Source: a virus. Taken from it: a stretch of 31,026 nucleotides of DNA. The translations under genes and the position numbers were made by a program. Below the pieces are notes generated by a model that did no database searches, was not told the origin of the DNA, and was given only the letters and a program-made list of their open reading frames with translations. The stretch is taken from positions 1 to 31,026 of IMG/VR virus record IMGVR_UViG_3300028800_000248. One strand, given 5' to 3'. Shown here piece after piece: positions 3-31,026 of the stretch; positions within the stretch are counted from its first letter, which is position 1, and the number at the start of each line of letters is the position of its first letter.

Positions 3-1238
3 ATCAACGGCGTGTCTCTTCCAACATCTGGCCCTCATCAAACGGCAGGTGTATTGCAAACAGGTAATGTGCTTCAAGTTACTGGTCCTTCCACATTGGG
101 ATATGCGCCAATAAATCTTTCTGGTGGGTCAAGTTACATCATTGGGGCATTGCCAACAGGGAATCAATCTCCTCAATCGATGGGTGGAGATGTCACTGGC
201 ACAACCGGAGCTTCGGTAGTTACAAAATTGCAGGGTAATGCGGTTGCTTCAGGAACAAATGGGGCAAGTCAAGATGGTTACGTACTTACTTGGAAAAATG
301 CGACATCACAATATCAAGTTGGACCAATGCCTTTGGTTGGAGATATTGATGGATACAACAACGCAACCGTTGTGGCATCTATTGCAACTCATACGACTAC
401 GAATGTTGGAGCAAGCATAACTTCACCAACAGTTCCACAGTTGCAGGTAAATACTATTGCAGTCGGAATTAATATAAGAACATGGTTGCAAACCATACCA
501 GACCCAGCAATAAACGCGGTAACTAATATTTACAAAAATAATTCAACTGGTGGTTATGAAATTGCATCTAACTGTAGATGGACTGGAACCGCTTGGTCTT
601 GTTATACAAGCACTGACGGTGGTGGTACTGACGCAGGATTAACATCAATTGGTAGTAGCGGAACGAATCTAGTTGTTCAAACAAAATCTACAACTGGTTT
701 AACGCCATTTATTACTACATGGACCGATACGTATTCCCCAGGATCTGGTTGGGACTATTACATGCAGTCAAGTTACTCGAATATGCTCATATTCGGAAAC
801 GTTGCCGCAGGCTCAGAGTTTCAAAACACATTATATCCGAATAATATTCCAAAAGCTTGGGCTTCATTTACATTAACAAACGCACCATTGGGTAATAGCG
901 CGATTTATGCGTTAATTCCTGGTACGGATGGCAATTTTTTCAATTGCTCGGTTATATTTTCTTCAGTTCCCGATGATTCGACTGATAATATGCACGTAAC
1001 ATTTGTTAATGCCATGCAAGACGCTTCATATTCAATAGATGTAAACTTTTCTGATATTCCATTAAATAATGGTGGGCCACCTAGCTCAACATCTATGCTT
1101 TTCCCACAAGTGATTAATAAATCTCCAACAAGCTTCGACATTATTGCAGTTGGATTTGATGGAACTCAGTATCCATTTAATACGGCATATAATCAGGGAT
1201 TTTCCTCAGTAGATTTCGTAATAATGGGACTTCAATAA
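3..1238 (+). CDS. Tail fibre protein, 5' end missing
   Basis: The reading frame is open to the left edge (Ile-Asn-Gly before the GTG at 12), and that GTG falls inside a repeat-like stretch (INGVSLPTSG), so the true start is probably outside the window. Around residues 55-105 (counted from the GTG) is a GDVTG...VVTKLQGNAV...DGYVLTW pattern, which I recall as a repeated module in phage tail fibres and bacterial surface proteins. The rest is Gly/Ser/Thr/Asn-rich beta-type sequence with no transmembrane segment, ending in a C-terminal domain of about 250 residues that could be the receptor-binding head. The stop overlaps the next ATG by one base (TAATG), so the two are translationally coupled. 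Fibre identity is inferred from composition and neighbours; the receptor is unknown. Confidence 0.7.
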   Translation: MNGVSLPTSGPHQTAGVLQTGNVLQVTGPSTLGYAPINLSGGSSYIIGALPTGNQSPQSMGGDVTGTTGASVVTKLQGNAVASGTNGASQDGYVLTWKNATSQYQVGPMPLVGDIDGYNNATVVASIATHTTTNVGASITSPTVPQLQVNTIAVGINIRTWLQTIPDPAINAVTNIYKNNSTGGYEIASNCRWTGTAWSCYTSTDGGGTDAGLTSIGSSGTNLVVQTKSTTGLTPFITTWTDTYSPGSGWDYYMQSSYSNMLIFGNVAAGSEFQNTLYPNNIPKAWASFTLTNAPLGNSAIYALIPGTDGNFFNCSVIFSSVPDDSTDNMHVTFVNAMQDASYSIDVNFSDIPLNNGGPPSSTSMLFPQVINKSPTSFDIIAVGFDGTQYPFNTAYNQGFSSVDFVIMGLQ

Positions 1239-1624
1239 TGAATATTTTATATAAAACAGTTTATTCGGATTCAGCCATCAATTATTGCAATTTGCAAGTT
1301 ACTGATGATGGATACCAATCAGATGGATATCATTTGATAGTTGGTGATGGATATATTATGTATTCAAAAGTTAGATACAATATGCCTCAAACAGAAATTG
1401 TTATACCGTTACCATTTCCTAATTCAGTTCGTGGATATTTTTGTTTAGATGGGTATTCTAGCAATGCACCTACGATACTCGTTGACGAGTTACGTGGTAC
1501 CGATAAACCATATGACTTCAAAGATGGACATTATAAATTTATTGATTTATTCTTCAATGCATCAATAGTCGATTTAAATAAGCAAACTATTACATTTTTA
1601 CATATTCTTCCACGGAGTGAGTAA
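1238..1624 (+). CDS. Small DGY-rich protein in the fibre cluster
   Basis: I do not recognise this 128-aa family. It contains four copies of DGY (codons at 1307, 1322, 1346 and 1448), three of them within 16 residues, and is rich in aromatic and beta-branched residues, suggesting a small beta-sheet domain. There is no signal peptide or membrane segment. It overlaps both neighbours by one base (TAATG at each end), so it is probably translated together with the fibre before it and the collagen-like fibre after it. A fibre-associated accessory protein or fibre chaperone would fit this position, but neither is shown by the sequence. Confidence 0.65.
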
Positions 1625-2304
1625 TGGTTAAAGCTAAAAATACTAAAGATATCCCAGGGTTGGTTGAAAAAAGAAAAAATCAAAAAATTGATAATAAAGT
1701 TTCAATCACACCAGGAACTAATAATGGCTCTACTGGAAAACCGGGTCCAACAGGCCCAATAGGACCACAGGGCCCACAAGGTACAGCTGGGCCCCAAGGA
1801 CCCTCCGGTCCACAAGGACCAAGTGGCCCACAGGGGCCTGCCGGTCCTCAAGGTCCAACGGGAAATCCTGGCGGTTCTGCACCAGCTATGGGAATGGTTG
1901 TAAATAATTCCAATGCCAGACATTGGTTGAAATATACTTACACATTTTCAGATTTTGCGGCGGCTTTAAGCACAAACTCACTAACTGTGGTTGATTTACC
2001 AGCTAAAACTGTGATCCACAATGCAATTTTAAAACATTCTGAACAATTTGCTGGAAGCGGATTGTATACATACAGTATTCAAGTTGGAATTACTGGAAAA
2101 CCAAATCATTTATTGGCAATGTTGAATGTATTCAATGCTCCTACTGATGTTAACTACTGCAAAATTCAGGTTAATATCAAAGATCAACCGTTGTCATTTG
2201 TAAATAATATCCCAATAATTATTACAGCTACTTGTAATCCAATGCTTAATAAAGCATTAGCTGGAAGTGTAGATTTATGGATTGAGATCTCTACTTTAGG
2301 ATAA
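1624..2304 (+). CDS. Collagen-like tail fibre protein
   Basis: After a Lys/Asn-rich N-terminus, residues of about 37-85 form an almost uninterrupted Gly-X-Y repeat rich in GPQ, GPT and GPS, typical of a phage collagen-like triple helix. The remaining roughly 140 residues form a globular domain beginning near MGMVVNNS; it resembles C-terminal head domains of short phage fibres that trimerise and may bind receptor. The expected product is a homotrimeric rod. The repeat DNA is much richer in G and C than its surroundings, which follows from Gly and Pro codons. The start ATG overlaps the stop of the 128-aa gene by one base. Confidence 0.8.
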
Positions 2305-2315
2305 AGAGGAAAGAA

Positions 2316-2615
2316 ATGAAGAATTTTTGGAATGTAATTGTTAAGTGTTTTTCTGGATTTTACGCCCTATTGCAAGATCCAGCTGGTATTATTTGTTTAC
2401 TTGCGTTAGCTATCGTTAGTGGATTGTGCTGGTTTCATCGTGTTGGAGATGTATCATTTTCAGCTTGTTGCACCCTTATCCCTGCGGTAATTGCGATGTT
2501 AAAGCATAAATCATTTTCAGGTAGTGATATCGATAAGGCTGTAGTTGCTGATCTTGTTGTCCCACCACCCCCTGTTAACCCAGCTGCTCCACCGCCACCA
2601 AATCCACAAAACTAA
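2316..2615 (+). CDS. Small two-helix membrane protein, holin candidate
   Basis: This 99-aa protein has two hydrophobic segments (about residues 22-40 and 46-63) separated by a short polar turn (HRVGD), then a soluble tail ending in a proline-rich stretch with runs of four prolines (about residues 83-97). A strong ribosome binding site (AAAGAGGAAAG) precedes the ATG. Two helices and small size fit a class II holin, and holins can sit among tail-fibre genes. No endolysin is visible nearby, however, and the proline-rich tail is not a usual holin ending. A membrane-associated virion or superinfection-exclusion protein is possible. The membrane call is firm; the holin call is an inference. Confidence 0.55.
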   Translation: MKNFWNVIVKCFSGFYALLQDPAGIICLLALAIVSGLCWFHRVGDVSFSACCTLIPAVIAMLKHKSFSGSDIDKAVVADLVVPPPPVNPAAPPPPNPQN

Positions 2616-2621
2616 TTAATA

Positions 2622-2672
2622 AGATATATAAGTATTAAGGTGAATAATTCAACATTTTTATAGTTGAACTAT
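2622..2672 (+). promoter_or_regulatory. Intergenic AT-rich element with a short palindrome
   Basis: This leader of the long fibre gene holds GATATATA (2623-2630) followed by AG, giving a TATAAG hexamer. It also holds a 13-base palindrome, ATAGTT-G-AACTAT (2660-2672), overlapping a TTCAAC/GTTGAA hairpin (2648-2653 with 2663-2668). The start is then set by GGAG (2677-2680) and ATG at 2685. The octamer recurs in three other gaps of this window. A late promoter or an RNA-processing/leader hairpin are both possible; no consensus -35 is visible. Confidence 0.25.
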
Positions 2673-2684
2673 TGATGGAGAACT

Positions 2685-5600
2685 ATGACTAATTTCCCCA
2701 ACTCGCTGGATGATGATACATCAATTCCTCGCGTTGACAACAACATAACAGAAATTGGAGGCGATGTAATCAATGCGGAAAGAGACGCAATATTTGCTAT
2801 CGAATCCAATATTGGCATTGGTGCCGCAGGATCAACCGCATCCATCGCAGCACGATTGGGCGTTAGTTTAAATCCCGATGGAACTCTAGCTCCCTCAGTC
2901 ATCACAAGCCTTTATAACACAATAGGTATTACAAATCAACAAGTTGCGTCTGGTGCAGCAATCTCTGAATCCAAATTAAATCTTTCATATTCCACAGCTG
3001 CATTGAACAGTGCTATCGCAACTAATGCAATAGATGTTCAGACAGCATTGCAATATATCTCAAATACTGGATTCAAACTTCAACCTCATCTTGATGGAAC
3101 TGGTTACCGTCATGAAATGAACATGATTGACGTGGATGAAAACCCCGCCAATTGGTTCTTGAATAATTTAGGTAATTTCAGAAATAACACGAATTTATAC
3201 ACATTATTCGGAGATATCAATCAAGATTTAATTAATCATGAAAATGCCGTCCATCCAGGAGCATTAACCCCACCGCCCACTAGCTACGCGCATTGGGCCT
3301 CAGGTATCTTCGTAAATACGAGTGGTTTTATTTCAATTCCACAAACAGCCGATGATGTTCAACAGCTTGCTGAGTATATTGATAGTGCTAACGTATTCCT
3401 TATTGGTTCAAGAATTCAAACTCTTTACCAAAATGGTATCGCAAGAGCGGCTAGAGCCTCAACTCTTACAGATCCAACCCACGGTAAACTAGTATTACCT
3501 CCAACACAATCAATTACATATCGTTCTAATAGCGCGCCAACAGATAATAACATCACTGGCAATGATATCATTAAGATTACGCCAACTGATGGGTATACGG
3601 CATTCACCGCTCAATTTTCTCAAGTTAAAATTGGAGATATTGTTACTGTTAACTACGGATCTGTGGTTGCATCATTCATAGTTAAGGAAACAAGAATTGA
3701 TGGCTATACTGGAACATATGGCTATATTAGAATTGATAGACAAAACATTGCGGCGGTATCCAACGCATTAGTACAAATCAATAGGCCATTATTCAACACG
3801 GATAAACAAGGCGTATTGGCCTTGGCCCAATGCCAGTCTCCAGTTGGACTCCCAAGTTTAATTTGTGGGCAACCTCGTGGAGCGGAAATTCTTGGCATTG
3901 ATTTCAATGCGGACACATTAGATAGCGCGCATTACAATTTGTACTTGACCCTTTACCCAACAGGTAACCCTGCGCAAGGCAATACTTTGCCGGCTATCGA
4001 CGTAACCGGTAATCAAGGCGCCACCCCAGGTAAATACACTTTAGATAGCATTGTAGCAGCGACTAACGCCGCTTTCAGAGCCCCTGGTTACAACTATAGA
4101 TTCATTGCTTATCAATACCAAGGTAACTTTGGAGTTATGCTTTCCGATCCTTATGGCGGAGCAACATTCTCAATAGTGTCTCAAATTGTAAATCAAACAA
4201 CTGGCGTCCCAGATCAAACTCAAACTCAATTATTCTATCCAAACAATGTCGTAGACACATTTAATATAATTGATCCATTGGGATTTGGCCCACTTAACGC
4301 CAACGTAGCAAGCCCACCATATCAAACTACATATGGTTCTGTAGCTGCTGCACAGTTGCCAACAAAAATCTTCGTTCCATTAACAAAAAAGACATTCTAT
4401 GTCAATGGTCAAGATAGAGATACATTAGGATTAGAGCCAGGGCAATTATTTGATGGCTATGGCGATGGGTACTGGTTAGCCAATATAATTTCAGTCAATC
4501 TTACTGGTAGAGTACAAACAACTTATCAAGTCAATGAAGATTTATCCTCATCAGGATTGGCAATTGGTAAGACCATTGTTGTTCAATCCAATGCAGGCGA
4601 CGGTTCTCAAGTTGACTTTGGTAGATTTATAATTGAAAATGTAGTTTATAATGCCTGCAACTGTGATGGATATTCCAATTATGCGCAAATTACAGTTTAT
4701 GATGCGGTGCATGGAACTGGCGTAACTCCATTTGCAACTTCACCAATTGGAACAACTGTTCAGTTATATTTTGCACAGGATTCAGTCAGCTTCAATAAAG
4801 AAAATGCGTCTGATTCTAATTCATTTACTATCTTCAAGAGAAACTTCGAAATACTCGTAGATCAAGATGGATATACGTTCTCTCAAGAACGCGCCAGAAT
4901 GAATGTTAGTGGTTCCAATCAAACAATCAATGCATCACCGCTTGTTGTGCTTTACAGCACTCCATCGGCATCATTTATCAATCTTTATAAGGTATCTCCA
5001 AAACTTAGGGGGTATACCGCTGCCAATACAACAAAGATCACATTACAATTATTAGCTTTTAACACAACGACTGGCATATTTGACGGATATCTTTGCAGTT
5101 ATGATGGTGTATCAGCCACGCATAGTGGGCCAATTGCCACTGGTAAAATGGGGCAGCCAACAAGATTTTATGATGAAACCAATATAGATTATATTGATTT
5201 TATTTTCAATGTTGATGATTCAGTTCCAACAATTTTATCTCCTCAATTTATTGATGTTCAACTTTATCCATCTTTGAGTCTTGATGAAGAACTTTTACTT
5301 TTGGGCACATGTCAGTTAAATGACTTGACTAGTCAACTTACATATTTAAGAGATGAAAGACAATTTGGAAACGTTAGCGAGAAGCAACTTTCCACATCAG
5401 CACTAGATTATATTGCGACACCAACCAGACTTCTAAATGAAAATGGTATCATAAGAGGATTTGATATTACACAAATCCCAACTGGTGCATCACCATTCCC
5501 AAACGCAGTAGCAATCAATGGTGGAACTGCTATTATCAACGGTAAAGTTATTCAAATGAATAATGATATCATTGCATTACCAGTTGTACAAGAGGTTGTT

Positions 5601-7082
5601 GGGGCAAACTTAAATAACACTATTACTTGGTTCATCTGTGTTAATGATAAAAGCGAATTTGAGCTTGTTGCATCAACGGACTTCACTCCTAATTCTGCAA
5701 TTTATTCTGGCCTTGATGAAACCAGATTGTTCACGGTTCAGAATCCAAATCTAGGTTCACCAACCCCATATGTAATTCGTGGAACTTACCTTGCAGATTT
5801 GGTTCAAAATCAAAGAGATTTGGCGTTAATCGGCATCATAACTGCAAATGTTGGATTTGGAATTTCCAATTGGGTAGTCACTAGCGTTGGGACACAAACC
5901 GCAGCAAGTTGCGATGCCAGAAGATTTATTGGGGGAGGATATAGCGGACTCATTAGCCCATTTGTATTGGGCACTAATGGAAGTTTCAGAAGCTTCGCGG
6001 CATTGAATGGCTGGATCAATCAATTAACTAATTTCGTATCAGCAACTCACAAAAATAACTCAATAAGCAAAAAAGTAATTGTTAAAGGCAACTTCCCAAT
6101 TACTGCGCCAGTAACGTTGAATTTCAGCGATGAAATCACATTTGAGGGTGATGGTGGAGTATTCACTATTAACATTGCCACTGGTATATTCGTTGGAAAT
6201 AACGTCAAGTTTAAGAATGTAAGATTCGACTACAATTTCGCAATTTCAAATGATGGATATCTTGGGCATCAAGCCAATGCTGCCGTCTATTGCGTTGTTG
6301 ATCCGGTTAACGGAAACAAGAATATAAGCTTTGAGCATTGCTTGTTTACGTCTGCAACTCAATATAGATATGGATTCTTGACATTTAGTCTTACCCACTC
6401 AACTTGTCTTCTAGAGAATGTCGTAATTATCGACAATAGATTTGAGACGTCAGCAGCGGCTGATGATCAAATGGAAGTTATTACATTCGTCGGACCATCA
6501 CGTAGCCCAACCACAGCAACTGGTGCAAGATTGAATAATTGCGTCATTGAAAGAAACTTCTGTAATAAAAACCAACTAATCCAAATTGCTCCGCTATTGA
6601 CTATTAATTTATTTACAAGTAGCGCTAATGTATTCGATTTGCCAGCAGCAACCAACACTAGAATAGTTGGAAATACTTGTGGAGCCATCAATGTAATGGT
6701 TAAGCAAGATACCCCATTGAATATTCCAAATGTTAACTTTAATCTAGGATCTACAGCTGGGGTAATTATTTCAGAAAATAACTGTAAGTTTATCTACAGC
6801 GGATTTACTAACGGTAACTTCGCACAAGGAAGTTTCAGTAGCATTAATGCAATTCCAGGCGGATTCAATTTCTTAGTTGGAAATCTATCCATTACAAATA
6901 ATAATGTGTCATTTATATATACAGGGTATCGTTCTACAATATATGCGACACCAACATGTATAGTCAAGGCGAATAAGTTCACTGCGTATAATTCAGCATT
7001 TTTAACACCATATTTCAATGGTGTAGTTCAACCACAATCCGGTCTTCTTGCACTTTGGGTTAATAAAGTGGTAGGTAATTAA
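2685..7082 (+). CDS. Long tail fibre / baseplate-attached fibre with beta-helix
   Basis: This 1465-aa protein has a good ribosome binding site (GGAG, 4 bases before ATG). Its N-terminus (NFPNSLDDDTSIPRV, with a helical stretch to about residue 140) resembles the baseplate-attachment end of phage structural proteins. The middle is beta-rich and carries eight DGY tripeptides (near residues 302, 339, 590, 594, 661, 728, 800 and 1190). From about residue 1130 to the end, repeats such as ENVVIIDNRF and LNNCVIERNF mark a right-handed parallel beta-helix, a fold common in tailspikes that bind or cut polysaccharide. The helix does not end cleanly: the next gene starts one base after this stop and continues similar repeats. 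No catalytic residues can be assigned by eye. Confidence 0.75.
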   Translation: MTNFPNSLDDDTSIPRVDNNITEIGGDVINAERDAIFAIESNIGIGAAGSTASIAARLGVSLNPDGTLAPSVITSLYNTIGITNQQVASGAAISESKLNLSYSTAALNSAIATNAIDVQTALQYISNTGFKLQPHLDGTGYRHEMNMIDVDENPANWFLNNLGNFRNNTNLYTLFGDINQDLINHENAVHPGALTPPPTSYAHWASGIFVNTSGFISIPQTADDVQQLAEYIDSANVFLIGSRIQTLYQNGIARAARASTLTDPTHGKLVLPPTQSITYRSNSAPTDNNITGNDIIKITPTDGYTAFTAQFSQVKIGDIVTVNYGSVVASFIVKETRIDGYTGTYGYIRIDRQNIAAVSNALVQINRPLFNTDKQGVLALAQCQSPVGLPSLICGQPRGAEILGIDFNADTLDSAHYNLYLTLYPTGNPAQGNTLPAIDVTGNQGATPGKYTLDSIVAATNAAFRAPGYNYRFIAYQYQGNFGVMLSDPYGGATFSIVSQIVNQTTGVPDQTQTQLFYPNNVVDTFNIIDPLGFGPLNANVASPPYQTTYGSVAAAQLPTKIFVPLTKKTFYVNGQDRDTLGLEPGQLFDGYGDGYWLANIISVNLTGRVQTTYQVNEDLSSSGLAIGKTIVVQSNAGDGSQVDFGRFIIENVVYNACNCDGYSNYAQITVYDAVHGTGVTPFATSPIGTTVQLYFAQDSVSFNKENASDSNSFTIFKRNFEILVDQDGYTFSQERARMNVSGSNQTINASPLVVLYSTPSASFINLYKVSPKLRGYTAANTTKITLQLLAFNTTTGIFDGYLCSYDGVSATHSGPIATGKMGQPTRFYDETNIDYIDFIFNVDDSVPTILSPQFIDVQLYPSLSLDEELLLLGTCQLNDLTSQLTYLRDERQFGNVSEKQLSTSALDYIATPTRLLNENGIIRGFDITQIPTGASPFPNAVAINGGTAIINGKVIQMNNDIIALPVVQEVVGANLNNTITWFICVNDKSEFELVASTDFTPNSAIYSGLDETRLFTVQNPNLGSPTPYVIRGTYLADLVQNQRDLALIGIITANVGFGISNWVVTSVGTQTAASCDARRFIGGGYSGLISPFVLGTNGSFRSFAALNGWINQLTNFVSATHKNNSISKKVIVKGNFPITAPVTLNFSDEITFEGDGGVFTINIATGIFVGNNVKFKNVRFDYNFAISNDGYLGHQANAAVYCVVDPVNGNKNISFEHCLFTSATQYRYGFLTFSLTHSTCLLENVVIIDNRFETSAAADDQMEVITFVGPSRSPTTATGARLNNCVIERNFCNKNQLIQIAPLLTINLFTSSANVFDLPAATNTRIVGNTCGAINVMVKQDTPLNIPNVNFNLGSTAGVIISENNCKFIYSGFTNGNFAQGSFSSINAIPGGFNFLVGNLSITNNNVSFIYTGYRSTIYATPTCIVKANKFTAYNSAFLTPYFNGVVQPQSGLLALWVNKVVGN

Positions 7083-7083
7083 T

Positions 7084-8922
7084 ATGGCACTTGATACAGC
7101 ACTAAGCAATGTAATTATTGAAGATAACGTATTTGACTATGGCCTTTTTGCTACAGATACTAGTCTTTCAACCATCCCAACGACATATGGGTATGCAAGT
7201 TGCATTTTTACGAATTCAGATGCTAAAATTACAGGCAATTATTTTGGTGCGGCAATAAACGGTTCGACTCAAATCATAACTAATGGCACAGCTTCTTGTA
7301 TGATAACGAATAATACATTCGTTAGAGGTACGACTTCGATCGCAGCATACATAAATGCGTCGGCTAGCTTCGGGGATCAAGTCATTGTAGATAATATTTT
7401 CGATAGCCCAACAGTTGATGGATTTAATGAGACATTGGTTCAATTGATTCCAGTCACCTCGGTAACTCCCACCGTTATTTATGAGAGAAACAAAAATCAA
7501 ACGGCGTTCAAACAAATTCAAAAATCGCCATACTTAACCAGCTTTACATCACAGCCAGGATTTAATCTTTCTGAGTGGGCTGGGTACGTAGACAATTCAA
7601 CAACTATAAGCCCATCTAATCCAGCTCTAAATCATCCTTTTAATGGAACTTTCTTTAAACAAGAAGGTGTGGCGGCTAATTATTCAACACCATTTAATCC
7701 TTTAAATGCGATAAGAATGAGTGGATTATTTCATCCACAAAATGGTGATACAACTGTATTAGTCGATAGCCCATTGCCAGTTCAAGTGACCAGCTCCTTC
7801 ACTGGATCTCCATCACTGCCATTCTATATTATGTTTGGTAATGATAACGTTTATTATGAGGTGATAGCTACTTCAACAACTTCTGGTGGCGCGATAACTC
7901 AGCTTGTAATGACAACGCCTTACACTGGACCCACAGATAATGCAATGTTTGCGACATTCTTCCCAATCGGTGGGTTTTTGCAAACCACACTCGGTTCATA
8001 TGCAATAACTGGTGGTACAAGCTCAATAACTATTGCCGGGGCATTAGGTCTTGTCACAATTGGAAGTGTAATTCACGTCAACGATGGAACAGCGGCAACT
8101 TATCGTGTAACTAGCGTTAGCTCATCAAGTATTAGCATAAGCCCTTCATATGGTGGTTCAACCGGAACATACGTAATAACAACGGGCTCAACTGTCTTAG
8201 CAGCCAATTTTTCCGTAAATCTATCCGAAGTATTGCCATCCAATGTTAAAGTTGTCAGTACGGTATTTGGTATTTGGGGAAATAATAACATAAATCCTTC
8301 TGGTAATTCTACCAACGTCACCCCTTTGATTACCGCTGACTATAATGCCTTTATGCACATGAGTTCTGGTACACAACTATATGCTAATAATTTAACAAAT
8401 TTAACATTCACATTAGTTACCAATAGCGCAACAGTCACGGCAAGTGCTACACCAGTTGGATTGTCAATTGGAAGTGCAATATGTTTCAGCCCACAATCTG
8501 ATTTTGTGTATCCAATATCAAATATCGTTGGAACAACGATAACATTAGGTGTTCCATATGTTGGCGCCCCTTCTACGATTGCTACAGCAGTTTATTTTGA
8601 TAACACCATGGCTGACGCGTCGAACTATTCAATAGTATCAGGCACATCGGCAGCTTTCGGTAATCCAATTTCAATGGTAGTTGGCGGGGGTAGTGGAATA
8701 GATAAAAATGTTTTTGCTGCACACACTCAATATCTAAAAATTGATCCATCAGATCCTCTAATCAGTAATGGATTTCCATATTTCACCGGCAGTGGAATAT
8801 TACTTAGATACAATCTAAATATTACAATCAATATGGCCACCGTGACAAATAATGGAAGTAGTATTGTTCCAAGCTCTATGTTTTTACCTGAATCTCCACT
8901 TATTGTAAAATATCGTTGGTAA
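7084..8922 (+). CDS. Tail fibre protein beginning inside a beta-helix
   Basis: This 612-aa protein starts one base after the stop of the 1465-aa gene, in the +1 frame relative to it. Its first 120 or so residues are beta-helix rungs (SNVIIEDNVF, DAKITGNYF, ASCMITNNTF, DQVIVDNIF) of the same type that end the upstream protein. The rest is Ser/Thr/Gly-rich beta sequence, likely the distal or receptor-binding part. A weak purine-rich site (GGTAGG) lies upstream, so coupled re-initiation is plausible. The pair could be two subunits that complete one spike, or one ancestral gene split by a frameshift. It has no DGY copy, unlike the upstream protein. Confidence 0.7.
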   Translation: MALDTALSNVIIEDNVFDYGLFATDTSLSTIPTTYGYASCIFTNSDAKITGNYFGAAINGSTQIITNGTASCMITNNTFVRGTTSIAAYINASASFGDQVIVDNIFDSPTVDGFNETLVQLIPVTSVTPTVIYERNKNQTAFKQIQKSPYLTSFTSQPGFNLSEWAGYVDNSTTISPSNPALNHPFNGTFFKQEGVAANYSTPFNPLNAIRMSGLFHPQNGDTTVLVDSPLPVQVTSSFTGSPSLPFYIMFGNDNVYYEVIATSTTSGGAITQLVMTTPYTGPTDNAMFATFFPIGGFLQTTLGSYAITGGTSSITIAGALGLVTIGSVIHVNDGTAATYRVTSVSSSSISISPSYGGSTGTYVITTGSTVLAANFSVNLSEVLPSNVKVVSTVFGIWGNNNINPSGNSTNVTPLITADYNAFMHMSSGTQLYANNLTNLTFTLVTNSATVTASATPVGLSIGSAICFSPQSDFVYPISNIVGTTITLGVPYVGAPSTIATAVYFDNTMADASNYSIVSGTSAAFGNPISMVVGGGSGIDKNVFAAHTQYLKIDPSDPLISNGFPYFTGSGILLRYNLNITINMATVTNNGSSIVPSSMFLPESPLIVKYRW

Positions 8923-8925
8923 TCA

Positions 8926-9741
8926 ATGGCAACTGGAAATATATTTAAATCAGATTTACCAGGCCTACACAATGTAGTGCAGAACACTTGTATAGTTCAA
9001 CCTAAAGACATTGTGTTATCGCATTTACGCAGATATTTTTCAGATGATACCTATTATCACTATTCTAAAGATCCGTGGGGATTCCCAAATACAGTTGACC
9101 ATACTGACTTGCCTTTGACCGCCGGTCTAAATGACAATATTACCACCAGATTGTTCATTGGCGAGAATTACAGACAGGATGGAATTTTCTACCCAGCGAT
9201 TTTGGTAAAGCATGGGGGAAGTAAATCTGTGCCTCTTTCTATAAACAGAGAAAGGGGATCAGTTCAATGGGAAATTAGAAGCTATCAAGATGGATATGGT
9301 AATGTTTCATTTTATCGTTCCCCGAAGAGTTTTATTTATGCGGGGGCTTGGGAAGGATCATTAATTATAGATATTAAAACTAGAAGTATAAGAAGTCGAG
9401 ATGATATTGTAGCGGAGTGTATGTTATGTTTTACAGATATCCTTTATGAAGATTTAAAGAATGCGGGTGTACTTTGTAAACCACCAACTGTTAGTGGAAC
9501 CTCTGAAGATGATGATAGAAATGATAAAGTATTTAGGCAAACTATCACATTAGATATACGAACTGAATGGAGAAGGGAAATACCAGTAAGTAATATTGTA
9601 GAAGTTATTAACTTTGCTGTAGAATTCGGTAATTTGGCGGTTCCAAACGCACCAATTGCGCAGAATTTAACGATAAATACAGATTTGACCTTTGTAGACA
9701 TAATGAACGGTTTACCAGCAACTCCAATTAATGGTCCCTAA
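8926..9741 (+). CDS. Putative tail terminator / neck protein
   Basis: This 271-aa protein lies directly before the sheath gene, where myoviruses often encode a tail terminator or head-tail joining protein. Near residues 135-185 it has EGSLIIDIKTRSIRSRDDIV followed by a helix, a pattern I associate with tail-terminator-type folds (a strand with Arg-Ser-x-x-x-Arg-Asp, then a helix). It has one DGY near residue 122, no membrane segment and no signal peptide. The start lies three bases after the previous stop with only a weak ribosome binding site, suggesting coupling. An alternative is a neck or fibre-attachment protein; the assignment rests mostly on position. Confidence 0.45.
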   Translation: MATGNIFKSDLPGLHNVVQNTCIVQPKDIVLSHLRRYFSDDTYYHYSKDPWGFPNTVDHTDLPLTAGLNDNITTRLFIGENYRQDGIFYPAILVKHGGSKSVPLSINRERGSVQWEIRSYQDGYGNVSFYRSPKSFIYAGAWEGSLIIDIKTRSIRSRDDIVAECMLCFTDILYEDLKNAGVLCKPPTVSGTSEDDDRNDKVFRQTITLDIRTEWRREIPVSNIVEVINFAVEFGNLAVPNAPIAQNLTINTDLTFVDIMNGLPATPINGP

Positions 9742-12674: not shown

Positions 12675-12691
12675 CAGTTAAACAATATAGT

Positions 12692-12703: not shown

Positions 12704-12731
12704 AGTAGGGAATTTTTTTAGGAGTATTTAA

Positions 12732-13343
12732 ATGACTTATCCACAAACGGGCAGTACATTGTATGGCCCAAATGGGCAGAACGAAACTAGAGTATCGGTA
12801 TCAACAAATATAGTAATTAAAGTTGGTCCTAATACTATTGGAGCAATTCAAAAGTTAGATGTTGCCGAAGCCAGAAATATTCAAATGATTGATGAAGTTG
12901 GAACGGATGGTCATATCGACGGCGTTCCAAACAAGTCAACGGATATTTCAGGTGGATGCACCAGAATTCGTTTCGATAGAATGAGAGTTGCAGAAGCTTT
13001 CAGCAGAGGTTTCCTTCACGTCCATTCTCAAAGAGTTCCCTTCGACATCGTAATTATTGACAATTGGAACGGAGCCGGAAATTTATCTTTAGTTACAACA
13101 ATCAGAGGCGTATGGATTGAAAACATTTCATATGCTTACGGCGTTGATAACTGGATTGTCTCCGATGATATGAAGTGGAAAGCACAAGCAATTCAAACAA
13201 CCTTAGCTAACTCGTTCGCAGCTACTGGTGGAACAAGAAACATTCCTCTTGCAATCGATCCAATTGAACAAGCCGCAGACATTGGTCTTCGTCGTGGTTC
13301 TCTAGATGCACCAGGTTTATTACAAGCGTTCCTTCCATACTAA
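12732..13343 (+). CDS. Tail tube protein
   Basis: This 203-aa protein immediately follows the sheath and has the length expected of a myovirus tail tube subunit. The core of about residues 75-160 (RIRFDRMRVAEAF, then PFDIVIIDNW and a WIENISYAYGVDNWIVSDDMKWKA-type stretch) fits the paired beta-sheet tube fold. Tube subunits stack as hexameric rings inside the sheath and form the DNA channel. A strong AGGAG ribosome binding site precedes ATG. An intrinsic terminator lies right after the gene, consistent with high expression of the sheath-tube pair. Confidence 0.85.
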   Translation: MTYPQTGSTLYGPNGQNETRVSVSTNIVIKVGPNTIGAIQKLDVAEARNIQMIDEVGTDGHIDGVPNKSTDISGGCTRIRFDRMRVAEAFSRGFLHVHSQRVPFDIVIIDNWNGAGNLSLVTTIRGVWIENISYAYGVDNWIVSDDMKWKAQAIQTTLANSFAATGGTRNIPLAIDPIEQAADIGLRRGSLDAPGLLQAFLPY

Positions 13344-17596: not shown

Positions 17597-20500
17597 ATGG
17601 GTTCAGATTTTTTAACAGGATTATCCAATCAAATAAGCGGTCAATTTAACCTTGGTGATAATCAAAATAAATCGCTTGATGTAGCTAATGATGGCACGGC
17701 GCAACGCTATGGCAAGTTGGGTGATTTTGCGAAAAAATTTGACCAGTCTCAAGAGCGTAAATATCTACAAGAAGGATACTTGCGCACTGACTACTACAAT
17801 GCTGAGCCGAAAGTCCTTGAAGTTCTATTTCAAGAGCCTGATATTACTGTTCTTGTGAAGAAGAGAGCTTTTTGCGCTCTAGCAGAAAATTTTGATCTAT
17901 CCCACATGGATGCAGATGAGAAGTTATTTTACAAGGCGACGAAGATACTTTTCTCTAACAAATGTCAGCAAATCGCGGCATATGAAATGTTATCTAAGAT
18001 TCAAAGAGTATCGGCAGCAGCAGGAAACATTTCAACGCAACTAATTCCGTTGGTTATCAGTTTAGTAAATGAACTTAGCAGTGGAACATCAGATTTTACA
18101 ACAATTTCTCCGAACACTGTAGCCAGCGGTACCGATCCAACGGGCGGCGGGTTATCGAAGCTAAAGAGCACACTTACTGAATTACAAAATGTATATTCAT
18201 TCCATGATAGTAATTTTTACACAACTTGGCTTGTTGACTCATCGAATCTATTCAAATCAAAATTTGGACAAGGAACTGGCGTTATGGAATTTTGTAACGT
18301 CACCAACATTAATACAACCACTAGTTTGGAACTGGGCGGCGGTAATGTAACTATGGATATTTCAGATCCATACAATATGATGTGGATCAATAATTATGAT
18401 ATTGAAAAAGCATTGAGTGATGCAACTAATCCAATCTATAATAATCAGGTATTTCAATTTGGTCAAGACAGCGTTGATTCGCAAGCTGCCTTGCAGACTC
18501 AGCAGCTTAATGATGCGCGTGCTCAGCGCGGCGCGGGCCCAATTCAATTTATAACAAATCCAAACTCGCTTTTGAGTGCCAAGGTTGTGGCGATCATTAC
18601 AACTATTGGAGAACAAATTAACTTCACCTACGATGCAGGATTTGGCCTTGGTGAGCTTGGTGGCGGGGGAGTTACTGTAGGACAAGAATCCTTGGTTGGT
18701 GGCCCTAATGTTTTTGATCAGGGATTGCAGCCAGGCAACGAAGTAAACCTATTCTCGCAAGTTGTCAACACGTTATACAGTGGGATTCAATTAAAATTAA
18801 ATTCTCAAAATATTACTAAGCAAAATTCGAACGTAACGAACTATGCTAGAAACAAGTTAAGACTTCATTATAATGGTAAGAGTTTGATTCAGCCAATGGA
18901 TCAAATTCATATTTACATTGGCTCAAAAGCTAGATTAGATAATAAAATTATAGGTGGATTGCAAGGGGCTTTTACTGGACTTGGCTTCTTACAGCAACTC
19001 AGCAACACTGCGGCTGGATTTAAAGATTCATTTCAGGCGTTATTTAACCCTAACGCTAATGCCAATTTTCAATTAGAAAAAACAGTTCTTGTAGGAGCTG
19101 ACTTTCCAAACTGGCTCTGGACTTTATTAAGAAACATGTTCGTAACAGAGACATCGGGCGTTCATGTCTTTGGCGGCGTAGCTCAACAGCCAGACTCTGG
19201 CTACAATAATGGCTCCTATAAACTCAACATAAGTGGTAAGGATATGAGCCACTATCTAGAGCAAGGTAGAGTCAATTTTAAGCCTGCGGCTAGTGTTTTT
19301 AACGGACCACTTTATGATCCATTGACCCCATTTAAGACATCAATCGATGTTACTACAGATGTAACCAAGACCAATGCCGTTGACTTACTAGATGAAAATA
19401 AACAAATCTTAGCAACAAATTCTATAAAATTTAAAGCTGGGCATTTAGCTGGAAGACAAGCAACTGAGAGCAATATAAATCAGCAAGATAGTGAATTAAG
19501 TAACCTTGGTCAAGTTCGAAAAGTATTATACCCGCCTGATGGATTTGTTTATAAATGGAAAGAGGGTATTGGAACGCTAGTTCAACTAAGTGACTCATAT
19601 AATATACAAGGTGATAATACCATTAGTCCACAGGCTTTCACTGTAAATCCTTTTGCTGGGCAAGATATTATGAATATAATATCGTTATCCATCACTGGTA
19701 TCCCATACAATTTTGCAACCTATTATCAAGCTAATCAAACAAGTGTTAATGGTTCGGGAAGAGATCCTCAAACTGGTGAGGATGCTGCGTTTTCTTACTT
19801 CAAATCGTTGAGTTTAAATCTACAGAAGAATAATTTACTTTGGGGTAATTTTATTCCATTCAAGCTTTTGTACATGGGCGAAGCTACTTTTCAAAAAGTC
19901 ATTACGGCACAATTTACTATTAATAATGCAAATTCAATTGTCAACGATCAATTACAAAAGATACAAGATCTTTCTAATCAATTAAAACTCATTCTTGGAA
20001 GAAATACTGGTAGCCAAACTGAAAATAGCGCAAAGCTCCAACTTCAGAATCAACTTCAACTCGAGACGGATACTTTGCGCAAAGAGACTCAAAGAATTAA
20101 CGCGCAACTAACCAGCTCAGGGACTCAGGGATTGAGTATAGTTGGTAATGATGTTAGTTTCGACACTGATTCGCTTGTCAATGCAGGCCAATCTGACAGT
20201 CAAAGTCTTTCACAACCTTGGCTTCGTAAAGATCTACGCAGAAAGACTAATTTCCTAACCAGAAGATTATCCTGGAAGGTTAGATCGAATGAAGATCAAA
20301 ACCTGTTCATAGTGGATGATACCTATGATAAAGACTATGATATTCAAGCATTCGAAAGTAAATTGGAAGACCCTAAATTATTCGAAAGCCAATTTGCATC
20401 TCCACTTGAAAATATAAAAACTACCTCATCATTACTGAATTTGGAAGTATTTTGCGATTCTCAAGGTCATATACGAGTTCGAGCCCCACTTTACAATAGA

Positions 20501-22486: not shown

Positions 22487-22495
22487 TAGGGATTT

Positions 22496-24499: not shown

Positions 24500-24508
24500 T
24501 GGAGATAA

Positions 24509-24865: not shown

Positions 24866-24869
24866 TTAC

Positions 24870-24877
24870 GATATATA
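24870..24877 (+). promoter_or_regulatory. GATATATA octamer before the 724-aa gene
   Basis: This is the fourth intergenic copy of GATATATA, placed 11 bases before ATG 24888. The gap has no purine-rich ribosome binding site, unlike nearly all other gaps here. It could be part of a promoter or just an AT-rich leader. Confidence 0.2.
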
Positions 24878-24887
24878 GTAATTTAGA

Positions 24888-27062: not shown

Positions 27063-28741
27063 TGGCTACTAACAAAGTCAGTGGGACTGGTCCACAAGAC
27101 GCATTTAATGAAAATCAAAATTACGATGTTGATATTAATAAAATTTATCAAGACTTCGTTGTTGAGATTGATAAGATGCGTAGTAATGTAAGCGTTCAAA
27201 ACAATCCAAGCTTACAATCGATAACAGCTTTCAATACAAGCACTAGCCCGGCTAATGTAAAAATTGAAACTACTCCACAAGAAAGTAGATGTCATGCGTT
27301 TTACAGATTGCTAGGGTTACCAGTTTCCGACGGTGATAGTCTTTATTGCCCAGGATTCGATCAGCCAAATAATAGTGATCAGCAGTTAGCTGCGCATAAG
27401 ATTACCATCGCTGGTAATTTATTGGAAGATCCAATTCTTTCAGTAATAAATATTAGAGAGACTGTGCCAAGAAGCTATCTATCAATCTTTGCCTTGCAAG
27501 ATGTAAACGCCATGGCATTAGCTATGTCCTCAGCAGAAGTCCGTTTTTTTCAGGCACCACTAACTTCGCTAACAGGGGCGTTTGACGCCAATCTGAATCA
27601 TCAAATTTATACTTCCAACATAACCCAAAGGTTAATCAATAACGTCCATGCTAGTGATGGGTATACTCTTCCTACAAACATAAATTCATTTATACAAAGA
27701 TTTCATATACTATCTCCGTTTATTGTAGATCCAAGAATAGATTTTAATGTTTATCCAAAGAGAAATACGATTGCAGTTCCATTCCTTGCTGATAAATCTC
27801 AGACCAAATTAACTGAGAATGTATATTTAAAACGCCCATATATTGAAAAAGTTTGTAGAGATAGATTTGACGCGAGTAACACAACCGCCAAGCTTGGACC
27901 AAGCCTAGCCGATATTGCCTCCAATATTAAAGCCAATCCATTCTTTCAGGATAACTCATTAATTCAGTCGGCTTTCAATCTAGATAAAATTACGGGAGCT
28001 ACAGTTCAATTTGCCAATTATTTCAATGCGATACGCTCTACTTTGAAGCAACTTTACAAGGCCATCCAAACTGTACGTGTGGTTATGGCAGCGGATCCTA
28101 ACTCAAATAATGCAGCTAAATATAATTGGACTCCTATTCCAGATAAATCCGGGCCAGAGTTTGGCTCAACAACCAGAGATTTATTTTCTCAACAATTTAA
28201 TGATCCTCATAATACTAAATATGATTGGTCAATAATTGGTGTCATTTACCAGCAACAATTGACTAGCATAAGCAATAAACTTACCACTCAACAAGATGTT
28301 GATATAGGCGGATTTGCCTTTGATAACATAGAGTTAACTCCAGACCAAAATTCAACCGACGCTCTTGGAGATACCAATGCGGCGCCTATTGATACTTCAC
28401 AAAGTGAACGCCAATCTCTAACAGATGCGGCTAATGAAGCCCTAAAGACCATTGAGATTATTACTGGAGAATTCAGCGGGCTTGGATTAATTGACATATT
28501 TGTAATTTCGGCGGCATTTTGGATAATGGATAAAACATTTTTAATAAGTTTATTGGATACGATTGCTGTTAATCGTATGATTACCAATGCTAATTTACAA
28601 GATCCGATTGCATTGCAAGCTAAGAATGAACCCATTCATAGCCCATTAGATGCAATAGGGAATTTCCAATCTCAAGTTCTACAGATTTACCAAGTTGTAG
28701 ATTTGCTTTGGATTCAAATCCAAACTCAAAATACATCTTAA
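27062..28741 (+). CDS. Hypothetical baseplate-region structural protein
   Basis: This 559-aa protein is not recognised. Its ATG overlaps the stop of the hydrophobic protein by one base, so the two are probably made in coupled amounts and may form a complex. The N-terminus is Asn-rich and helical; the middle contains RETVPRSYLSIFALQDVNAM and one DGY near residue 199. A moderately hydrophobic stretch near residues 475-505 (IDIFVISAAFWIMDKTF) could be an amphipathic or membrane helix. Placement just before the gp25-like gene suggests a baseplate component. Confidence 0.6.
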   Translation: MATNKVSGTGPQDAFNENQNYDVDINKIYQDFVVEIDKMRSNVSVQNNPSLQSITAFNTSTSPANVKIETTPQESRCHAFYRLLGLPVSDGDSLYCPGFDQPNNSDQQLAAHKITIAGNLLEDPILSVINIRETVPRSYLSIFALQDVNAMALAMSSAEVRFFQAPLTSLTGAFDANLNHQIYTSNITQRLINNVHASDGYTLPTNINSFIQRFHILSPFIVDPRIDFNVYPKRNTIAVPFLADKSQTKLTENVYLKRPYIEKVCRDRFDASNTTAKLGPSLADIASNIKANPFFQDNSLIQSAFNLDKITGATVQFANYFNAIRSTLKQLYKAIQTVRVVMAADPNSNNAAKYNWTPIPDKSGPEFGSTTRDLFSQQFNDPHNTKYDWSIIGVIYQQQLTSISNKLTTQQDVDIGGFAFDNIELTPDQNSTDALGDTNAAPIDTSQSERQSLTDAANEALKTIEIITGEFSGLGLIDIFVISAAFWIMDKTFLISLLDTIAVNRMITNANLQDPIALQAKNEPIHSPLDAIGNFQSQVLQIYQVVDLLWIQIQTQNTS

Positions 28742-28755
28742 TTATGGTATCTATA

Positions 28756-28773
28756 TTATCACATAGTTGATAA
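28756..28773 (+). repeat. Short inverted repeat before the gp25-like gene
   Basis: TTATCA (28756-28761) and TGATAA (28768-28773) form a perfect 6-bp inverted repeat with a 6-base spacer, 20 bases before the ATG. No T-run follows, so it is not a terminator. It may be an mRNA hairpin or operator-like site, or chance. Confidence 0.25.
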
Positions 28774-28793
28774 CAAAGGGAAAAGGGTAAATA

Positions 28794-29228
28794 ATGTCTT
28801 TTGATCTAAAAGTCAGAAATGGTGATTTAGTTCTCAATCGTGGGGACTTGCAAACTGTTGTTGACAGTGAAAAATTAATCCAAGATATTTTAAAAATAGC
28901 TTTAACACCAGCTGGATCAAATCCATCTTTTCCTTGGTATGGTTCTTTCGTTTCAAGAACATTAATTGGTTCGCCACTAGGAACATCGATTATAATTCAA
29001 GTGGGGCAATCTCAATTACAGAATGCAATTCAAATTCTCATGCAATTGCAAAGCGCTCAATCTAAATCAGGACAAAGTGTTAGTGCAGATGAACAAATTA
29101 ATTCTATATTGGATATATCTATAATGAGAAGTATTTCAGATCCAACCTCATATAATGTCAGAATTAAAGTTTTGAGTAAAGGGTTTAAACCAATTACGAC
29201 TGCATTCACCGTTTCAACATTAACTTAA
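28794..29228 (+). CDS. Baseplate wedge protein, gp25/gpW-like
   Basis: The 144-aa length and place just before the gpJ-like gene match the gp25-like wedge protein (T4 gp25, P2 gpW, Mu gp46). The N-terminus (DLKVRNGDLVLNRGDLQTV, then EKLIQDILKIALTPAGSNP) gives the family's beta-hairpin followed by a helix and a TPxGSNP-type turn. The C-terminus ends in a beta strand (YNVRIKVLSKGF). The family forms part of the inner baseplate and starts sheath assembly. It has two good purine-rich sites (AAAGGG and AAAAGGG) upstream. I did not confirm the EPR motif seen in many members. Confidence 0.7.
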   Translation: MSFDLKVRNGDLVLNRGDLQTVVDSEKLIQDILKIALTPAGSNPSFPWYGSFVSRTLIGSPLGTSIIIQVGQSQLQNAIQILMQLQSAQSKSGQSVSADEQINSILDISIMRSISDPTSYNVRIKVLSKGFKPITTAFTVSTLT

Positions 29229-29240
29229 GCCCGGACAAAC

Positions 29241-31026
29241 ATGGTAACAATTCGTAGCGTCAATGAAATCATCTTAAGTCTTATCGACTTTTTCAAGTTA
29301 GTTCAGCCTGACGCTGACACTAAACCTGGCACTGTTATTCGCGATCTTGTCATCGATGGGCCTTCAAATCAAATCTCTCTAGTCTATGATGAGCTATCCA
29401 AAGTATCTAATCAACAGTCTTTCAGACTCGTCGTTGGTTCTGACTTAGATAAGTTGGCTAAAAATTTCGGACTTGTTAGAAAAGTTGCCACAACTTCAAG
29501 CGGCATAGCTCTACTTACTTTTAACTCAATCGTAGCAACCATTACTATTAACCAAGGCGATGTAATCACTGCGGCTAATGGTTTCAGCTTTGCGGTTGCA
29601 AATGGTCTATCTATCGTTCCATCACAAATAAACTATTATAAGTCACTTGCTGCCAAATACCAAAACGATCTAACCTTCGTTGGGATTAGCGATCCATATG
29701 CGGTGCAGGTGTCGATTACGGCTACTACACCAGGCTCTGCGGGCAATATCTCAAAGTACGCCCTTAACTCAACAACCATTCCAGGCATATCCAACGTGAC
29801 AAACGTCAATGCCTTCTTAGGTGGCAATGACCAAGAAGACGACGCTACCTTCCGTAACCGTGTTCTATCGCTATTTAGCGGCTCCAGCATCGGCACAAGC
29901 TTAGGATATAAGAATACCGCCCTATCAACAAATGGCGTCATCGACTGTTACGTAGTCAGCCCCGGCGATCCATTGATGACACGCGATGGCAGCATCGTCA
30001 CTTCAGACTCTCAAGGGAACCTAACTATCGTATCCGAAGGTACAGGCGGCAAAGTCGATATCGTTATCTTAGGAACTAATCTCGTTCAAAATACAGATAG
30101 CTTTATCTATCAAGACAAGAGCAACAACAATGATCCAACAAATGCGAAAAACAATTTCGTATTAGGACAAATTGTTGGTGATGCAAATAAGACTTTCAAT
30201 CAGAAACGTATTGGTGACATTGCAGCTGGCACATTGCCGGAGCAACCAGTTGATAGCATCGTACAGGTGACTGGGTCACTCAGCGGCTCAAACTTCTTGC
30301 CAGAGTCCATAGATTCATTAGGGCGTATCACAGGAAATTATAAATTAATTAAAGATACGGGCGTTTATGCAGGTAGCCCATGGGGATTTGATACTTTTGC
30401 TTGGATTAACAATCAAGTTTCATTTAGTGAAGATAAGATTAAAGGAAAGTCCAACGGTCAAGACCCAGTTACCTTCTCTGATGTATTAGCTATACCACAA
30501 GTTCAACAAAACCTATCTATCACAAACGAAAACAGCAACGTTCTAAACTCCAATAGAAGTCTTGTTCAACTTCTACATACTCCCGCCACAGCAGTGACCA
30601 GAGTATTCAATGTTAACACTGGTGAAAGATATACGATCGTAAATCAAAATCCAAATGGTACCGGGGCAATCAACACTTCAGGCGTAGTGCAGATCTCCGG
30701 TAATACGTTGCCATCACAAAGTGATGTATTACAAGTTGATTATAGTTGGGTTGTAACATTTGACCAGTACTTCGATTATGATGGTTTGGTATTGACAAAT
30801 AATTCTAGAGTGGTTGATGACAGCATTGACTGGGGCTATTCAAATCTTGTAAGAAATGAAAAAATAGTATTTGCTAGAAATCAGTCAAATACATTCTTCA
30901 TTGGTTCAACATCATTGCCAATTAATTCGGTTATCACCGCAGCAACATTTAGTGAGATTGATGGATACATTACCACGGTAACCTCTGGCGTTCTCACCGG
31001 AAGATTAGCGATTACATTCAATAACC
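29241..31026 (+). CDS. Baseplate wedge protein, gpJ/gp6/gp47-like, 3' end missing
   Basis: The frame opens at ATG 29241 and has no stop through the right edge, giving at least 595 residues. The N-terminus (VNEIILSLIDFFKLVQPDAD, PGTVIRDLVIDG) and the later TTPGSAGNI and GGNDQEDDATFRNRV (about residues 165-208) are hallmarks of the baseplate J-like family, where GG-D-E-D-RxR follows a PG-x-x-GN turn. These proteins form the wedge ring that links sheath and fibres. A DGY occurs near residue 574. The gene begins 12 bases after the gp25-like stop with only a weak CGGA ribosome binding site, so coupling is likely. It is already longer than Mu gp47 or P2 gpJ. Confidence 0.85.
   Translation, partial: MVTIRSVNEIILSLIDFFKLVQPDADTKPGTVIRDLVIDGPSNQISLVYDELSKVSNQQSFRLVVGSDLDKLAKNFGLVRKVATTSSGIALLTFNSIVATITINQGDVITAANGFSFAVANGLSIVPSQINYYKSLAAKYQNDLTFVGISDPYAVQVSITATTPGSAGNISKYALNSTTIPGISNVTNVNAFLGGNDQEDDATFRNRVLSLFSGSSIGTSLGYKNTALSTNGVIDCYVVSPGDPLMTRDGSIVTSDSQGNLTIVSEGTGGKVDIVILGTNLVQNTDSFIYQDKSNNNDPTNAKNNFVLGQIVGDANKTFNQKRIGDIAAGTLPEQPVDSIVQVTGSLSGSNFLPESIDSLGRITGNYKLIKDTGVYAGSPWGFDTFAWINNQVSFSEDKIKGKSNGQDPVTFSDVLAIPQVQQNLSITNENSNVLNSNRSLVQLLHTPATAVTRVFNVNTGERYTIVNQNPNGTGAINTSGVVQISGNTLPSQSDVLQVDYSWVVTFDQYFDYDGLVLTNNSRVVDDSIDWGYSNLVRNEKIVFARNQSNTFFIGSTSLPINSVITAATFSEIDGYITTVTSGVLTGRLAITFNN

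Follow-up and report, generated by a model that had tools for sequence, protein, structure and literature searches.

The tripeptide DGY is strongly enriched in certain tail proteins of a family of uncultured jumbo myophages, where it probably serves as a sequon for tyrosine O-glycosylation of the virion. It was studied in a stretch of 31,026 nucleotides from the viral record IMGVR_UViG_3300028800_000248, here called the window, and in related loci.

DGY in the window

The window contains 22 in-frame DGY in eight proteins (Table 1), the first at 273-281 and the last at 30960-30968, and the hand count of a preliminary description, with its split of 2, 4, 8, 1, 3, 2, 1 and 1 per protein, proves exact. 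A six-frame scan finds 23 DGY on the plus strand, the additional one (20065) being out of frame within the 1629-aa gene, and none on the minus strand. Shuffling each protein gives an expectation of 1.5, with a maximum of 6 over 1000 shuffles (Poisson P ~2e-18), while dipeptide counts of DG and GY give 3.8 (P ~2e-10), so that the excess holds against either figure as it did against the earlier estimate of about two. When all tripeptides are compared with shuffled proteins, a check that the preliminary description had proposed, DGY is first in the window both by count and by z (16.6); the next-ranked tripeptide has a z of 5.7 and the highest across 200 shuffled sets is 8.4. Nor do the related glycine-containing words that it had named as possible equals match DGY: NGY occurs 0 times (2.3 expected), DGF 5 (2.1) and DGT 6 (3.8). 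The reported absence of the word from tape measure, hub, tube and others is likewise borne out, the 730-, 1629-, 667-, 203-, 260- and 98-aa proteins all being without it.

Table 1. Window genes with DGY, and DGY-free internal controls (the last three rows).
Protein	Position	Strand	DGY in window	DGY in relatives
Fibre-like, 5' end outside window	3..1238	+	273-281, 348-356	
128-aa protein	1238..1624	+	four: 1307, 1322, 1346, 1448	relatives searched, no homologue found
Long fibre-like, 1465 aa	2685..7082	+	eight: 3588, 3699, 4452, 4464, 4665, 4866, 5082, 6252	2-7 in each of 16 homologues
Tail-terminator-like, 271 aa	8926..9741	+	9289-9297	13/18 aligned sequences
Tail sheath, 938 aa	9858..12674	+	11094, 11268, 11418	
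Tail protein, 724 aa	24888..27062	+	26247, 26799	16/22 and 14/22 aligned sequences
Tail protein, 559 aa	27062..28741	+	single: 27656	0/25 homologues
Baseplate J-like, runs off window	29241..31025	+	30960-30968	12/22 aligned sequences
Tail-tube-like (weak PHROG virion match)	12732..13343	+	none	absent from 29/29 homologues
Tape-measure-like, 730 aa	14544..16736	+	none	absent from all 13 homologues
Hub-like, 1629 aa	17597..22486	+	none	absent from all 31 homologues

The sheath is identified by a PHROG sheath match over residues 760-935, the baseplate J-like protein by PHROG and Pfam Baseplate_J matches, and the terminator-like protein by Foldseek matches to phage neck and terminator proteins. 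In models of low to moderate confidence, the terminator DGY is predicted to sit at a hairpin tip, in the turn joining two strands. The sheath copies appear, from the alignment and the predicted model, to fall within variable insertion β-domains, two of them inside predicted strands rather than turns in a model that is weak overall. The lone DGY of the 559-aa protein may be due to chance or recent, because none of its homologues carries one.

Specificity, level of selection and turnover

Among related jumbo-phage loci, DGY ranks as the top tripeptide in 76 of 111. Across the 2573 ORFs of the family set there are 1611 copies against 191 expected (about eightfold), and no word one residue away exceeds 2.3-fold, the best being WGY (2.25-fold) and DGT (1.98-fold). 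The same strictness is seen in five long contigs, where DGY reaches 6.8-fold but NGY 1.3, EGY 0.9, DGF 1.3, DAY 0.8 and DSY 0.9. The near-chance frequencies of these variants suggest that the carboxylate, the glycine and the phenolic hydroxyl all seem to be required. Proline directly after DGY is nearly absent from family ORFs (6 against 73.7 expected), compared with 79 against about 112 after other DGx words and 46 against 56 after GY not preceded by D.

The family sites lie in 1361 distinct 15-mers, contexts too different for low-complexity or duplicated repeats to be their source. Glycine-rich, low-complexity (DGYG)n arrays occur in many viral contigs that do not belong to the family, and look like a separate phenomenon. 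A literature search for 'DGY motif' and phage found no paper.

A general trait of myophage tails was considered and rejected, since no excess of this size is seen in the tail regions of Bacillus phage G (3 against 2.7 expected), an Eggerthella phage (2 against 3.3) or the T4-likes (19 against 12; T4's own region 10 against 2.5). Nor is a compositional habit of the host the source, judging by one metagenome-assembled genome that holds a family phage: its bacterial contigs have DGY at expectation (11 against 10.0), while 200 kb of phage contig has 49 against 7.9.

Codon use for DGY is close to background, with GGT somewhat under-used within the window, and 351 of 412 GAYGGNTAY matches in the DNA are in frame. 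Because of this near-background codon choice and in-frame placement, selection is, on the sequence evidence, acting on the protein and not on the DNA, as had been proposed; a DNA-level motif such as an uptake signal or modification site was rejected, the matches being in frame and on the coding strand only.

Of 51 core families, about 11, mostly from the tail exterior, account for the DGY; in the other 40 or so it is absent or almost so. Within alignments its retention surpasses that of other tripeptides in all identity bands short of 100%, by about two- to threefold at 40-70%, and at aligned DGY columns the frequent alternatives are DGT, DGV and NGL. Individual sites nevertheless turn over between phages, so that the conservation in relatives which the preliminary description had asked about is real but incomplete: in the sheath, DGY is spread over 21 different columns among 24 sequences. 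Distribution and turnover fit restricted surface sites that are gained and lost, with positions taken from the low-to-moderate-confidence models. The proposal of a surface β-hairpin tag is thus upheld in part: the modelled sheath insertion domains and terminator hairpin tip would place the mark on outward parts of tail proteins, but a hairpin is not the whole story, for the usual substitutes in such turns, NGY, DGF and DGT, show little enrichment or none, and selection is therefore on D-G-Y exactly. Of the several options originally offered, a modification site fits best.

A glycosyltransferase cassette and the probable role of DGY

Directly after the last DGY-rich tail genes lies a cassette encoding a GT4 glycosyltransferase, two GT2 enzymes and a dTDP-glucose-dehydratase-like enzyme, in a conserved gene order. 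The window ends 5' of the cassette, and the GT4 gene was observed in its nearest relative, G017. The GT4 product matches PF00534 above the cut-off (E=3e-8) and the solved glycosyltransferase 7mi0 (E=1.5e-10), and in its EX7E signature the first Glu is present in 51 of 51 sequences and the second in 48 of 51. Of the 43 family records 38 have it, and the remaining five stop short of its position or close to it. At 63 GT4 loci, the tail side typically has 5-20 DGY against about one or fewer expected, and the other side 0-2. From a blind scan for DGYxDGY arrays, 22 records were followed up. The family baseplate gene was present in 12 of these, of which 11 also had GT4, the exception being a 17.7-kb fragment; of the 10 that lacked the gene, none had GT4. 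Since the records share ancestry, this near-perfect co-occurrence does not represent many independent events, and the link between glycosyltransferase and DGY is one of genomic proximity within a single clade. Phage glycosyltransferases can instead modify DNA or the host surface.

Some members fit less neatly. The GT2 genes are absent or diverged in some DGY-rich members; in G027 a stop interrupts the GT4 frame, yet that member is DGY-rich; and the contig of the DGY-poor L021 ends before the cassette, a longer relative having been sought and none found. No GT4 was found in phage G, the Eggerthella phage or T4, or in a search for it among cultured phages. A 329-aa gene within the cassette was rejected as a further glycosyltransferase, having no family match; its sequence reads as spanin-like, with an N-terminal membrane anchor, a coiled coil and a β C-terminus.

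We infer that DGY would act as a recognition word in exposed turns and strand ends of outward-facing tail proteins. Once these proteins are made, a glycosyltransferase of the phage, for which the GT4 is the likeliest candidate, would recognise the exposed tripeptide and attach a sugar to the tyrosine hydroxyl; the pair of GT2 enzymes and the dTDP-glucose 4,6-dehydratase-like enzyme might extend that sugar or supply a deoxysugar. Small glycans would thereby come to cover the sheath and terminator, the periphery of the baseplate and the fibres in large numbers, and this coat could benefit the phage by shielding it from binding proteins and proteases or by helping it stick to host sugars.

A non-covalent short linear motif, on whose exposed copies an abundant phage decoration, fibre-attachment or assembly protein docks through a DGY-binding pocket, would be just as consistent with the strict specificity, the exposed placement, the multivalency and local arrays like DGYADGYDGYTDGY. 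We nevertheless consider such docking unlikely: no candidate binder was found, the turnover of positions is harder to reconcile with fixed docking, and the neighbouring sugar cassette stays unexplained. That Phe does not replace Tyr, nor Glu or Asn Asp, fits an acceptor hydroxyl with a recognition carboxylate, and so would also accommodate another modification of Tyr or Asp (sulfation, phosphorylation, hydroxylation, dityrosine or some other crosslink), whether the enzyme comes from the phage or from its host. This is decidedly improbable, as the scanned share of the core genes has, near the tail module, glycosyltransferases and a sugar-nucleotide enzyme but no kinase, sulfotransferase or oxygenase.

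A favoured β-hairpin or G1-bulge sequence in β-rich fibres would agree with the modelled terminator turn, with the DGT, DGV and NGL seen at DGY columns and with the mild rise of DGT; it is already largely refuted, and very unlikely, because the equivalent turn NGY is lacking in the window and, like DGF, barely raised in the family, and because the T4-like, Eggerthella-phage and phage G tails have no comparable excess. Least credible of all is adhesion of the virion surface to a host or environmental partner, as RGD serves for integrins: DGY is exposed, repeated and lineage-wide, but the terminator and sheath are unlikely places for receptor binding, no receptor is known and the cassette is again left unexplained.

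An eightfold word across unrelated virion proteins, with one-residue variants near chance, is an unusually clear sign of a reader. If that reader glycosylates, DGY would be a sequence-defined tyrosine sequon with a ready enzyme candidate, and glycosylated virions of uncultured giant phages could be recognised from sequence alone; if DGY is a docking motif, the virion has a component that has yet to be recognised. A single recombinant tail domain together with four genes would be enough to test either reading directly, and the tripeptide scan can be applied to any phage lineage. We tentatively suggest that this could be the first three-residue modification sequon spread over the exterior of a tailed-phage tail, with one tyrosine glycosyltransferase serving about ten unrelated tail proteins as a position-independent, heritable lineage trait.

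Comparison with known systems

The N-X-S/T sequon is also a three-residue word in which proline is disfavoured and whose exposed sites are gained and lost. The residues of DGY are different, proline is excluded after the word rather than at its middle, and the genes scanned revealed no oligosaccharyltransferase. Among phages, the nearest described relative by the baseplate J protein is phage G (29% identity), which differs from the family in having neither the tail DGY excess nor the GT4.

Virion glycosylation by phage-encoded glycosyltransferases is described for mycobacteriophages Che8, Corndog and Myrna (Freeman et al. 2023, as cited in PMC12363180 and PMC12619734). As far as these accounts go, phage enzymes there modify the phage's own structural proteins, as proposed here from sequence, with glycans on the C-terminal ends of capsid and tail-tube subunits (PMC12619734). 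In the DGY family, in contrast, a tripeptide recurs in many outer tail proteins, and the tube-like protein lacks it. A 'moraphage' jumbo lineage has four core glycosyltransferase groups (PMC12619734), and overlap with the DGY family is possible.

Tyrosine O-glycans are found on bacterial S-layers, for example Paenibacillus alvei SpaA (PMC2943079), a surface protein that self-assembles and in which tyrosine is likewise the acceptor of an O-linked sugar; S-layer glycan pathways include a GT4 rhamnosyltransferase, WsaF. Of the lipid-linked glycan and oligosaccharyltransferase expected of such a pathway, the scanned core genes gave no sign. S-layer proteins have few sites each, and the words consensus and sequon are absent from that review (PMC2943079), whereas DGY would amount to a defined sequon, one carried on the virion.

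The DGY excess and the exactness of the word

A mechanical scan of the window, a complete IMG/VR record that is itself a 31,026-bp fragment with 20 genes, all on the plus strand, finds 22 in-frame copies of the tripeptide DGY in eight proteins. One further copy, at 20065, is out of frame and the minus strand contains none. The total, the eight proteins and the per-protein numbers are exactly those of the preliminary description, whose expectation of about two copies was also sound: per-protein shuffling gives a mean of 1.5 and a maximum of 6 over 1000 shuffles, while dipeptide counts predict 3.8. No other tripeptide of the window is as frequent as DGY or reaches its z score (16.6, against 5.7 for the next), and NGY, DGF and DGT occur 0, 5 and 6 times. 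The observation is confirmed, and is much stronger than a reader of the sequence alone could know.

In the pooled set from the family, the uncultured jumbo myophages related to the window by their tail genes (2573 ORFs with some redundancy; 1361 distinct 15-residue DGY contexts), DGY is seen 1611 times where 191 are expected, an 8.4-fold excess. The highest values for its one-residue variants are those of WGY (2.25) and DGT (1.98). Over five long contigs NGY, EGY, DGF, DAY and DSY all lie at 0.8-1.3, so that aspartate is not swapped for asparagine or glutamate, glycine for alanine or serine, nor tyrosine for phenylalanine. Residues flanking DGY in the pooled set are mostly loose, the exception being proline, nearly missing from the following position (6 vs 73.7 expected); where another DGx or another GY precedes, its depletion is much weaker (79 of about 112 and 46 of 56, respectively). 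Codon use inside DGY is near background and 351 of 412 GAYGGNTAY matches are in frame. As the preliminary description had suggested, selection acts on the peptide, not on a DNA motif.

Proteins and positions that carry DGY

Among the identified proteins, which include none of the capsid, DGY is confined to certain tail proteins. Of 51 gene families common to at least four of the five long contigs, about 11 hold most of the DGY. Besides the long fibre, the sheath, the terminator and the 724-aa protein, these are the two largest proteins encoded downstream of the baseplate gene and a small number of others. The other 40 or so have no DGY or one stray copy, among them tube, tape measure, hub, gp25-like and tubulin-like proteins, helicases and ribonucleotide reductase. 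The window proteins described earlier as free of DGY do lack it, as do two further fibre-like proteins. The window's 1465-aa and 612-aa genes (see table) may each encode half of a single long fibre; in other family members, homologues of the former are up to 1961 aa long. The whole tripeptide ranking of contig G003 is dominated by collagen-like triplets.

The sheath alignment has 21 different DGY columns over 24 sequences, mostly each in a minority. None falls within the conserved C-terminal core, and most appear to lie in variable insertion β-domains according to structure models, which have moderate or low confidence overall and show position in the fold. In the predicted model of the terminator, a protein grouped by Foldseek with phage neck and terminator proteins, DGY sits at the turn joining two long strands. 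Some copies coincide with dockerin-type calcium loops, for example DVNGDGYITSA. One gene of a second, fibre-like cluster has an ice-binding-like β-roll match and 10 DGY in 909 aa.

In aligned homologue pairs DGY is kept more often than other tripeptides in all identity bands below 100% (0.40 vs 0.13 at 40-50% identity; 0.65 vs 0.29 at 60-70%), and the DG and the Y of a site tend to disappear together. Turnover combined with retention is the behaviour that would be expected of a word that is important in itself but need not stand at a fixed position. Of the roles suggested earlier, that of a word for modification or binding is supported; that of a mere hairpin marker is not.

Features of the window and of related contigs (G) and loci (L)
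Feature	Coordinates	Strand
Collagen-like fibre protein with GPQ/GPT repeats	window 1624-2304	+
1465-aa gene	window 2685-7082	+
612-aa gene	window 7084-8922	+
Dockerin-type calcium-loop match in DGY-rich tail protein	L072:8202-11738	-
Dockerin-type calcium-loop match in DGY-rich tail protein	G015:239303-242311	
Second cluster of DGY-rich fibre-like genes, apart from tail module	G004:123540-131182 (L062)	
Unannotated 329-aa gene within cassette; reads like membrane-anchored spanin	L072:2976-3962	-
TubZ/FtsZ-like tubulin gene	L059:16927-18285	+
Holin-like gene inside tail module	L074:10553-11008	
LAGLIDADG-type endonuclease genes, in and near a relative's tail module	L074:15885-16874; L071:2401-3210	-

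Spread through the phage lineage

With the baseplate J-like protein and the sheath as queries, over 100 loci from uncultured phages were retrieved, many of them on contigs 130-480 kb long. Of 111 such loci, 76 have DGY as their most over-represented tripeptide, a typical locus having some 8-10 copies vs one expected, and the excess is scattered across the entire baseplate-gene tree. The five long contigs show 99 vs 10, 45 vs 7.6, 105 vs 21, 60 vs 8.9 and 43 vs 6.0 (observed vs expected). A natural exception, L021 on contig G021, is a family member with essentially no excess (2 vs 1.5), where no other tripeptide clearly substitutes.

The nearest described phages, phage G judged by its baseplate protein (29%) and an Eggerthella phage judged by its sheath, are distant, and the tail regions of both lack a DGY excess. 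Pooled T4-like phages have 19 vs 12 expected, the T4 region alone 10 vs 2.5. In the one MAG holding a family phage, the bacterial contigs have 11 vs 10.0 expected and 200 kb of the phage contig 49 vs 7.9. The excess is a property of a phage lineage. The binning of this 383-kb phage contig (L134, G022:C75) into a Chitinophagales MAG is a weak hint of a Bacteroidota host.

The adjacent glycosyltransferase cassette and a possible role

The last DGY-rich tail genes are followed directly by a cassette that opens with a GT4 glycosyltransferase retaining the EX7E signature. Next come a GT2, in most cases a spanin-like gene, another GT2, a sugar-nucleotide enzyme most similar to dTDP-glucose 4,6-dehydratase and a tubulin-like gene, the last adjoining the cassette in 45 of 63 GT4 loci. 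Of the 43 family records tested, 38 have GT4; in the remaining five, as read from coordinates, the contig stops near or before its expected position. GT4 is absent from phage G, the Eggerthella phage and T4, and had no match among 50,697 phage records. Across 63 loci with GT4, typically 5-20 DGY lie on its tail side, where about one or fewer would be expected, and 0-2 on the opposite side; the window's nearest relative has 16 and 10 in the two large proteins just 5' of its GT4. DNA was also scanned blindly for DGYxDGY arrays: of 22 records hand-picked from that scan, 12 have the family's baseplate gene, 11 of them together with GT4, and none of the 10 others has GT4. Five of the hand-picked records belong to a more divergent branch, with DGY at 3-6 times expectation.

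An exact three-residue word, selected at the protein level, is carried by outer tail proteins across the lineage beside a conserved glycosyltransferase set. The inferred mechanism is that GT4, or a GT2, reads DGY and glycosylates its tyrosine, the other cassette enzymes extending or supplying the sugar. The more likely acceptor is tyrosine, since it bears a hydroxyl and phenylalanine does not replace it. The link between enzymes and word is weakened by the common ancestry of all glycosyltransferase-bearing records, by DGY-rich G027 (L249), whose GT4 frame is interrupted by a stop, by L021, the sole clearly DGY-poor member, which stops before the cassette, and by the possibility that the enzymes have DNA or the glycans of the host as their substrate instead. 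The main rival to tyrosine glycosylation is that DGY is a docking motif for another virion component.

We found no paper on such a motif in phages in the openly accessible literature. Both elements of the proposed glycosylation have parallels: S-layer proteins are known to bear tyrosine O-glycans (PMC2943079) and, as cited in two later papers, phage-encoded glycosyltransferases glycosylate the capsid and tail tube of mycobacteriophages (Freeman et al. 2023, via PMC12363180 and PMC12619734).
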